DNA from: Lusitaniella coriacea LEGE 07157
Lineage (GTDB): Bacteria > Cyanobacteriota > Cyanobacteriia > Cyanobacteriales > Spirulinaceae
DNA: 64,000 nucleotides
Assembly: GCF_015207425.1 (NCBI RefSeq)
Contig: NZ_JADEWZ010000009.1
Location: forward strand, 1-64,000
Direction: 5' to 3'
Under the pieces are notes generated by a model. That model was not told where the DNA came from, did no database searches, and saw only the letters and a list, made by a program, of their open reading frames with translations. Of this stretch, positions 40,624 to 46,657 are shown in pieces; position 1 is the stretch's first letter; each line of letters begins with the position of its first letter. Both the position numbers and the translations under genes were made by a program.

Positions 40624-40678
40624 TCTCAAAATACCTCAACGCCGCGATCGCGTGCAACCGAACCAAAGTCTTTGGATC
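40624..40678 (-). repeat. Stray copy of the 3' end of the HEAT-repeat gene
   Basis: 55 bp match 45436-45490 at 51 positions. In the HEAT gene the segment codes VRLHAIAALKYFER just before the stop; here it would read VRLHAIAALRYFEK without a stop. The two direct copies bracket the ATPase-TPR-DUF5131 segment. Only the 3' end is present, so this is a remnant or a junction sequence rather than a gene. Confidence 0.75.
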
Positions 40679-42137: not shown

Positions 42138-42163
42138 CCCTTCTCCCAACCTTGGGAGAAGGG
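42138..42163. repeat. Perfect 12-bp hairpin in the ATPase-TPR spacer
   Basis: CCCTTCTCCCAA-CC-TTGGGAGAAGGG. This is a common dispersed palindrome of cyanobacterial genomes, here lying between the two genes of the module. It may lower read-through; no T-run follows. Confidence 0.6.
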
Positions 42164-44977: not shown

Positions 44978-45430
44978 TGCGCGAGTTTCTCCCCCATCTG
45001 GACGAGCCAGAAAATTGTATTGTAGTACAAAAGAACTTTCGCGAGGGGTTCCGATACAATTCTCAATTCACATCTAACGTGAATCAGGATTTTCCCACAA
45101 CCGCCAAGAACTCAAGTTCTTGGCTAATAGCATAAGTCAGCTTAAGCTGACTCCACCGCCGATTTGTCACTCTACGAGTCTGAGTCCATTTGAATGGACT
45201 TGAGCTGTTAGCCTTGAATTTGAATTCAAGGCGGGTTAGATATCTTTGTGCGCTGCTTTAATCCACATTAAACGTAATTCTCAATTGATCTTGGGCGAGG
45301 TGCAATTCGCCCCTACAACACCGCGTTCTAAAAGAGCTGATTTATATAGCAATTCTCGGACTTATGGGGTAAATTCCCTATTCCCTATTCCCTCACTCTA
45401 GCAAGGGTTTTAGGGCATTCACATCAGGTG
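44978..45430. other. 453-bp gene-free stretch containing a hairpin array
   Basis: No gene seen. The central part (45099-45237) is a dense set of palindromes listed separately. The remainder is AT-rich spacer with repeat-like text (GTGCAATTCGCCCCTAC; TTCCCTATTCCCTATTCCC). Confidence 0.7.
45099..45237. repeat. Array of four perfect hairpins, cloverleaf-like
   Basis: GCCAAGAACT-CA-AGTTCTTGGC (45103-45124), AGTCAGCTTAAGCTGACT (45135-45152), AGTCCATT-TG-AATGGACT (45183-45200) and CCTTGAATT-TG-AATTCAAGG (45212-45231). Longer pairings enclose them: GGCTAATAGC (45122) with GCTGTTAGCC (45204) and CCGCC (45101) with GGCGG (45230). It may be a structured RNA or the end of a mobile element of the IS200/IS605 or REP type; no transposase is nearby. 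Confidence 0.75.
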
Positions 45431-46657
45431 CTATCTCTCAAAATACTTCAACGCCGCGATCGCGTGCAACCGAACCGAAGTCTCTGAATCCTGCGCCAAT
45501 TGCTGCAAAGCGTCTCGTGTCGTTGCGCTTTTTAATTGTCCCCAAGTATGGGCAAGTGCCTGTTTGATTTCTCTGCGTTCAACGGTTTCGCCGCCTGCTG
45601 CAAACCAGTTGAGAAGCCCCTGTGCGGCGTTTTCTTTGAGGGCAGAAGGTTCCAATCGTCCCAGGACGCGAATCAGTTCTAGGGCGCTTTCGGGGAGGAG
45701 GAGAGGAAGGGATTGTAATAAAGCCTGCACGCTAGAGGGGGTTTCCATCCAAGCGAGTGCCTGAATGAGGGTGAGTTGCAGGGGAATTGGCGTGGGAGGG
45801 GATTGCAAGACCTCCAGGAGGGTGCGTTCTGCGTCTGGGGTTTTGAGTTTACTTAGCGCGATCGCGGTTTGTTGACAAACCTCCAAATTAAAGTCGTATA
45901 GCAAGGGTTTGAGGCGATCGAGGAGGGCTAATTCTTCCGCCTTATCAACCCGAAATCCCAAGCAAATTACAGCTTCTTTGCGCACTAAGGGTGAAAGATC
46001 CGCCAACGCAGCGATTAAAGCCGTGTCAATCCGTGCATCTCGAAAACTCCCCAGGGTCTCAACCGCGATCGCGCGTACTTTTGCATCGGCATCCCCAACC
46101 AGGGTTAACAGGGGATCGATGACTTCGCGACGGCGAATTTGCCCCAAGGCGTAGGCGGCGGACAACCGCGTTTCGGGGGTGTTAAGTAATGGCACGAGGG
46201 CAGTAATAGCAGGGGTTCCCAGGTTCGCAAGGGCGGTGGACGCGATCGCGGCTAATTCCGAATCTTTTGTTGTTTCGAGCAATTTTGCCAAACAGAGAAT
46301 CACCTCAGCGCGATCGAATTGCCCTAAAATCCTGACAGCAAACCACTTTTGTTCAATGTCTGCATCTTCATCTTCGACGATTTTAATTAAGGGCGCGATC
46401 GCGCGATCTCCCAATTTCGGCAAGAGTTTTGCCAAATCCCAACGTTCTTGAAAATCTCCCTTTTCCAGAACCGTTAGCGCTATTTGCAAAAGTTCTCGAA
46501 CATCCGTCTCCTCTTCAGCTTGGGAGGATTCAGCTTCCCGCAACAACAACTGCTGCAAGTATTGATTGACTAAAGAGAAATCTTCTTCTTTAATCGCGTC
46601 TATCGCTTCGTCTAGCAAGGGATTGCGCTTAAATTCGATGCAATGGGGATGTTTCAT
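45431..46657 (-). CDS. HEAT-repeat (PBS lyase-like) protein
   Basis: Protein of 408 residues built of about nine HEAT repeats (for example IAPLIKIVEDEDADIEQKWFA, TALANLGTPAITALVPLL, VIDPLLTLVGDADAKVRAIAVETLG). The repeats match the PBS-lyase HEAT-like type found in phycobilisome lyases and many cyanobacterial scaffold proteins. There is no catalytic site. Its ATG overlaps the end of cobA by 4 bp, so translation is coupled and a link to tetrapyrrole metabolism is possible. The last 55 bp of coding sequence are duplicated at 40624. Confidence 0.87.
   Translation of the reverse strand: MKHPHCIEFKRNPLLDEAIDAIKEEDFSLVNQYLQQLLLREAESSQAEEETDVRELLQIALTVLEKGDFQERWDLAKLLPKLGDRAIAPLIKIVEDEDADIEQKWFAVRILGQFDRAEVILCLAKLLETTKDSELAAIASTALANLGTPAITALVPLLNTPETRLSAAYALGQIRRREVIDPLLTLVGDADAKVRAIAVETLGSFRDARIDTALIAALADLSPLVRKEAVICLGFRVDKAEELALLDRLKPLLYDFNLEVCQQTAIALSKLKTPDAERTLLEVLQSPPTPIPLQLTLIQALAWMETPSSVQALLQSLPLLLPESALELIRVLGRLEPSALKENAAQGLLNWFAAGGETVERREIKQALAHTWGQLKSATTRDALQQLAQDSETSVRLHAIAALKYFER

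Follow-up and report, generated by a model that had tools for sequence, protein, structure and literature searches.

TnpA-Y1 transposases of subclass 1.2 are recognized by a Y---Q--HH signature, occur mostly in cyanobacteria and Bacteroidetes at low copy number, and generally lack IS200-type terminal structures (Quentin et al. 2018, PMC6006769). Among repetitive extragenic palindromes (REPs), dimers of GTAG-15 in A. variabilis have been reported to lie within longer palindromes (PMC3733652). Here we describe an array of four hairpins in a 64,000-nucleotide stretch of Lusitaniella coriacea LEGE 07157 (contig NZ_JADEWZ010000009.1, positions 1 to 64,000; hereafter the window), where it forms the core of a 206-bp mobile element at 45070–45275. 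The array is very probably a gene-less derivative of a cyanobacterial IS200/IS605-like element, comparable to REPINs and to miniature inverted-repeat transposable elements (MITEs), that is nested in the shell of a DDE-type MITE.

Results

Four perfect palindromes of 18–22 bp lie within 130 bp of the window, where the initial annotation had placed them. H1 (45103–45124, 22 bp, GCCAAGAACTCAAGTTCTTGGC) and H4 (45211–45232, 22 bp, GCCTTGAATTTGAATTCAAGGC) each have 10-bp arms and a 2-nt loop, H2 (45135–45152, 18 bp, AGTCAGCTTAAGCTGACT) has 9-bp arms and no loop, and H3 (45183–45200, 18 bp, AGTCCATTTGAATGGACT) has 8-bp arms and a 2-nt loop. Both enclosing pairings described with them are also present, the inner joining TAATAGC at 45125–45131 to GCTGTTA at 45204–45210 and the outer joining ATCTAAC at 45072–45078 to GTTAGAT at 45235–45241. 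Counting palindromes with arms of at least 8 bp and loops of at most 2 nt, and clusters over a 135-bp span, we found 11 palindromes in the window, with H1–H4 as the largest cluster and the only one of four members. Sixty first-order-Markov random sequences contained 3.4 palindromes on average, and the largest cluster in them had one member in 55 sequences, none in four and two in one. Random clusters of at most two, against four in the window, bear out the claim that random sequence does not produce such an array. RNA folding energy was likewise well below that of shuffled sequences (z = -8.1 on the + strand, -6.2 on the - strand).

The hairpins are arranged with inverted symmetry, as (CCGCC-H1-TAATAGC-H2) followed by (H3-GCTRTTA-H4-GGCGG). 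The left half-unit, which resembles a left end (LE), occupies 45101–45152 on the - strand, comprises CCGCC, H1, the linker TAATAGC and H2, and matches the half-unit model R1 with 76.7 bits (E 1.9e-17). Its counterpart, resembling a right end (RE), occupies 45183–45234 on the + strand, comprises H3, the linker GCTGTTA, H4 and GGCGG, and matches the same model with 71.5 bits (E 3.8e-16). The two linkers are the partners of the inner pairing, and TAATAGC is kept across genera in the half-unit alignment. Between the halves lies a variable 30-bp spacer (45153–45182), which corresponds to the position of tnpA in related elements of other genomes (L315, L324, L326, L330 and L339).

To follow the core beyond this genome, we built a covariance model of the 52-nt half-unit and searched 194 genomes of the phylum. 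The half-unit was found in 44 of the 194 genomes and in 30 of 96 genera, many genomes having at least 30 matches. Shell-less cores are widespread; their halves read CCGCC-H1-TAATAGC-H2 or the inverse H3-GCTATTA-H4-GGCGG, and single half-units also occur. Plasmid records yielded two matches with the window query and one with the consensus half; the half-unit pattern had no match in viral contigs, and a literature search with the exact hairpin words returned chance matches only.

Compensatory change, which the initial annotation had proposed to look for, is strong in these relatives. In an alignment of 28 half-units drawn from many genera, standard pairs fill 99.4% of the pair cells and 94 cells are double-changed, compared with averages of 81.5% and 23 in shuffles. 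In a larger alignment of 142 distinct half-units, which was fitted to the model and is hence biased toward it, 97.1% of pairs are standard and 527 cells are double-changed (shuffles, 76.3% and 154). One-sided changes are few, with 37 G-T pairs against 8 A-C pairs among 2160 cells read on the outward-reading half-unit strand, an excess that weakly hints at strand polarity. The array had been thought open to refutation as a single copy without compensatory changes; to the changes in relatives are added 19 matches in this genome.

Such covariation would also be expected of a structured non-coding or regulatory RNA, such as a transcript stabilizer or terminator, that was spread by transposition and retained for its RNA function. 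The fold is very stable, the location is intergenic, and a read-through transcript would certainly fold. Yet 37 G-T pairs are few beside 527 double changes, neither strand is privileged because the core is inverted-symmetric, and no Rfam family was found at the array at gathering or relaxed thresholds. The dispersed copies with inverted ends and target duplications, together with a tight association with tnpA that would require a separate explanation, further argue against a structured RNA, one of the candidates of the initial annotation, and we regard this explanation as highly improbable.

We searched for the association with tnpA, a possibility also raised by the initial annotation, in two passes, and in other genomes the core indeed brackets an IS200/IS605-like Y1 (HUH) transposase gene. 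In the first pass, the half-unit model was run on 30 loci of PF01797 Y1 transposases from ten genomes. Half-units lay beside five of the 30 loci and at none of the other 25; four of the five positive loci, from three genomes, were inside or between cassettes (whole cores); at the fifth, L270, the Y1 protein is a different one. In the second pass, the 144-aa TnpA of locus L288 (P0001) was used as query against the 194 genomes, and proteins of near full length with at least 49% identity to it were classed as close. Half-units occurred within ~1.1 kb at 18 of 18 close-TnpA loci (103 matches over all loci) and at 0 of 12 more distant loci. All 19 genomes with a TnpA of at least 36% identity belong to the 44 repeat-bearing genomes (hypergeometric p = 1.4e-14).

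The position of the half-units relative to the gene is similarly ordered. In most of the 18 loci half-units stand on both sides of the gene, giving hairpins at both ends. The start codon has an LE-like half 40–77 bp upstream in L315, L324, L326, L330 and L339, and in these loci an RE-like half stands at or soon after the stop codon (99 bp after it in L315); in L324, L326 and L339 the TAG stop codon of tnpA is itself part of H3. The gene at L317, L318, L323 and L325 is flanked on each side by whole cassettes, much as RAYT genes are by REPs. In a phylogenetic tree, some deep branches of which are modestly supported, the cassette-associated TnpAs stand apart from a sister group that lacks cassettes and whose loci have no palindromes nearby except two isolated ones at L341. 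The second group of Y1 proteins, with a YIRNQ..HH motif (L332, L333, L341, L343 and L344), has no half-units, and among these loci L341 alone has palindromes nearby.

P0001 scores 91 bits against the IS200/IS605 family model NF033573 (cut-off 55), matches Pfam Y1_Tnp (PF01797), and is related to the solved TnpA proteins of ISDra2 and IS608. Together with two relatives it exceeds the IS200/IS605 family cut-off and reaches 22.9–24.9 bits against the REP-associated model NF047646, whose cut-off is 80. The Y---Q--HH signature is present in 16 of 17 intact cassette-associated open reading frames (ORFs). On signature, length and host, rather than on the published profile, we assign the cassette-associated TnpA to subclass 1.2.

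In the window, the core is enclosed by a shell of a different kind. The left terminal inverted repeat (TIR), ACATCTAACGTGAATC, lies at 45070–45085 on the + strand (family consensus ACGYYTRATGTGNATT), and the right TIR, which reads ACGTTTAATGTGGATT on the - strand and matches the family pattern exactly, lies at 45260–45275. Identical AATTC target-site duplications abut the two ends at 45065–45069 and 45276–45280. The initial limits of 45099–45237 covered the core and fell short of the whole element, which spans 45070–45275 plus the 5-bp duplication. A genome-wide BLAST search with the region, as had been suggested, returned the 19 matches noted above, seven of them near full length (206–214 bp from TIR to TIR).

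The shell is itself a repeat family. The host genome comprises 5.86 Mb in 114 contigs, of which our shell survey covers 1.6 Mb. Genome-wide there are 215 occurrences of the end motif ACGYCTAATGTGNATT, compared with 17 of a reversed control pattern, and the survey yielded 58 elements shorter than 300 bp between ACGYYTRATGTGNATT-type ends. A perfect 5-bp target duplication flanks 27 of the 58, against a mean of 2.8 (maximum 8) when flanks were re-paired; at least four of the five bases match in 40 of the 58, against a mean of 15.6. None of the 58 lies inside an ORF of at least 150 aa, compared with 78% of random placements. The shell thus has the features by which a MITE is recognized, namely terminal inverted repeats, short length, multiple copies, a target duplication and no coding capacity, and it behaves as a MITE whose ACGYYTRATGTGNATT ends and 5-bp duplications are typical of the DDE type.

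Could the element be an ordinary DDE-type MITE and nothing else, its ends and duplications explaining its spread and its hairpins being passive stuffing? The ACGYYTRATGTGNATT shell encloses all seven near full-length copies in this genome and also unrelated interiors (CCCCTCTCCCA/TGGGAGAGGGG types, runs of CCCTATTCCC and, possibly, repeats like GTAGGTTGGGTT), both as that explanation would have it. Against it, the core brackets tnpA genes, its palindromy is maintained across genera with double changes, many copies elsewhere have no flanking inverted repeat above chance, and a different shell surrounds the core in other genomes. We therefore consider it improbable that the shell accounts for the whole element.

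Several further observations concern the ACGYYTRATGTGNATT family. No autonomous element sharing its ends was found in the sequence read of genomes G000 or G004. The transposase at L149 was rejected as a parent of the shell: it belongs to a separate DDE_Tnp_1 insertion sequence (L149:6772-8165) with ends of its own, CTCACRGGGTGACAA, lying inside a ACGYYTRATGTGNATT-family MITE. A candidate autonomous element at G004:C33 was likewise rejected, as ordinary genes lie between both motifs. At L187, L188 and L189 in G004, ACGYYTRATGTGNATT-family MITEs hold a further insert bounded by inverted ends containing GTGTACAC.

The second shell, in other genomes, has CATTGGTGTCAASTTAA ends and 9-bp duplications, for example GAGCATAAA and GCATCCTGC, and it too encloses other interiors. 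A 1502-bp element at ~364-1865 of L295 (G013:C181), with CATTGGTGACAAGTTAA at both ends, a DDE_Tnp_1 ORF of 261 aa and flanks without a duplication, is a candidate parent of this shell. A scan for flanking inverted repeats around cassettes in other genomes was near null except for CATTGG-type shells. A third type of shell may occur at L260 (G013) and L056 (G033), where inverted sequence resembling GGGCTGTTTCATTCT, or its GAAACAGCCC end, flanks the cassettes. Nesting of the core in shells has a precedent, since REP dimers have been found inside longer palindromes in A. variabilis (PMC3733652).

Another early proposal was a recombination site, which we considered here as a recombination or integration site resembling attC. 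Folded attC sites present paired, imperfectly symmetric hairpins, and in this respect the array is similar. Its copies, however, are dispersed in MITE shells with target duplications and adjoin Y1 transposase genes. We found no evidence for a site-specific recombination site, families of such sites having been left unmodelled, and we give this explanation almost no weight.

The surroundings of the element contain further repeats. The 55-bp repeat near which the array had been placed exists as two direct copies, 93% identical, at 40624–40678 and 45436–45490; nothing linking it to the hairpin element was found. The 4.8-kb segment that they border includes three ORFs, one ATPase-like, one with TPR repeats and one other. 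The right copy is located at the 3' end of a gene for HEAT-like repeats (45431–46657). Just downstream of the 206-bp element, at ~45365–45431, is a remnant of another, CCCTATTCCC-type MITE, whose right end resembles ATTCACATCAGGTGC. Between two ORFs at 42138–42163 lies a palindrome, CCCTTCTCCCAACCTTGGGAGAAGGG, that resembles the interior of this genome's type-A MITEs.

Discussion

We propose that H1 and H2 represent the left end, and H3 and H4 the right end, of a Y1 element whose gene is missing from the window copy, the 30-bp spacer standing where relatives encode a putative subclass 1.2 Y1 (HUH) TnpA. Of the identities first suggested, an IS200/IS605-type or REP end is the one retained, and a structured RNA and a recombination site are set aside. 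In single-stranded DNA, as exposed during lagging-strand synthesis, each half would fold into two hairpins, which TnpA would bind; it would then nick the DNA, join the ends and move the segment. The simplest history would be that gene loss produced the cassette; cassettes may have entered their shells by Y1 transposition. Since this genome yielded no close TnpA, recent copies here probably moved with the outer shell, most likely through a shell transposase acting in trans.

A number of observations weigh against this derivation from an IS200/IS605-like element. P0001 had no match in this genome at E 0.01, and the Y1 proteins read in it carry a motif of the Y..NP type. Nor was a transposase with ACGYYTRATGTGNATT ends found in the 1.6 Mb surveyed. 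The exact ends of the autonomous element are not fixed, because several tnpA loci bear whole cassettes on each side instead of a clean LE and RE, and the inverted symmetry of the core sets it apart from known IS200/IS605 ends. What the sequences show directly are the copies, their inverted ends and target duplications, the covariation and the physical association with tnpA in relatives; that TnpA, or a shell transposase, would recognize and move these units is inferred from them. Finally, events may have run in reverse order, with a gene captured between pre-existing repeats.

Because neither terminal hairpins nor REP partners were attributed to subclass 1.2 TnpAs in 2018, their substrate has been open, and, judged against the open-access literature, the half-unit is a concrete candidate for that DNA. 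A repeat found in about one fifth of the sampled cyanobacterial genomes would thereby gain an identity based on mobility. The core occurs in two MITE shells that differ in their ends and in the length of their duplications, and possibly in a third, which bears on how repeats multiply after their own transposase is lost. More broadly, subclass 1.2, a whole branch of HUH transposases thought to be partnerless, may form a phylum-wide, REPIN-like system of paired double hairpins in cyanobacteria, whose gene-less units repeatedly end up at the centre of DDE-type MITEs and yield composites that could spread by two unrelated chemistries; we see the case for this wider proposal as evenly balanced.

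Among known systems, REPIN/RAYT (TnpA-REP), including the GTAG REPs (PMC3116915, PMC3733652), offers a close parallel, with dispersed intergenic palindromic units, inverted pairs, few tnpA-type genes per genome and units that flank the gene. The present system differs in having two hairpins per half where REPINs have one, in showing no GTAG tag at conserved positions of the half-unit, and in a transposase that fails the REP-associated model NF047646 and has Y---Q--HH in place of Y..NP. The cassette-associated proteins agree with subclass 1.2 (PMC6006769) in their Y---Q--HH signature, [DN]H[IV]H motif, length of ~133–156 aa, one or two copies in most genomes and cyanobacterial hosts, whereas the presence of a partner repeat in one branch departs from the subclass as reported. 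A Y1 HUH transposase, hairpins at each end and gene-less copies are shared with IS200/IS605 elements (IS608, ISDra2) and gene-less derivatives such as PATEs; two hairpins per end, the inverted symmetry of the ends and the outer DDE-like shell and target duplication of this genome are not. Elements of that family insert on the 3' side of a short, specific target through a single-strand intermediate and without duplication. Cyanobacterial MITEs, including Nezha and the 147 MITEs of Anabaena sp. 90 (PMC3542288), are likewise short, gene-less, mostly intergenic and bounded by inverted ends, with several internal hairpins. This comparison covers general features, and the core described here differs in being tied to a Y1 transposase.
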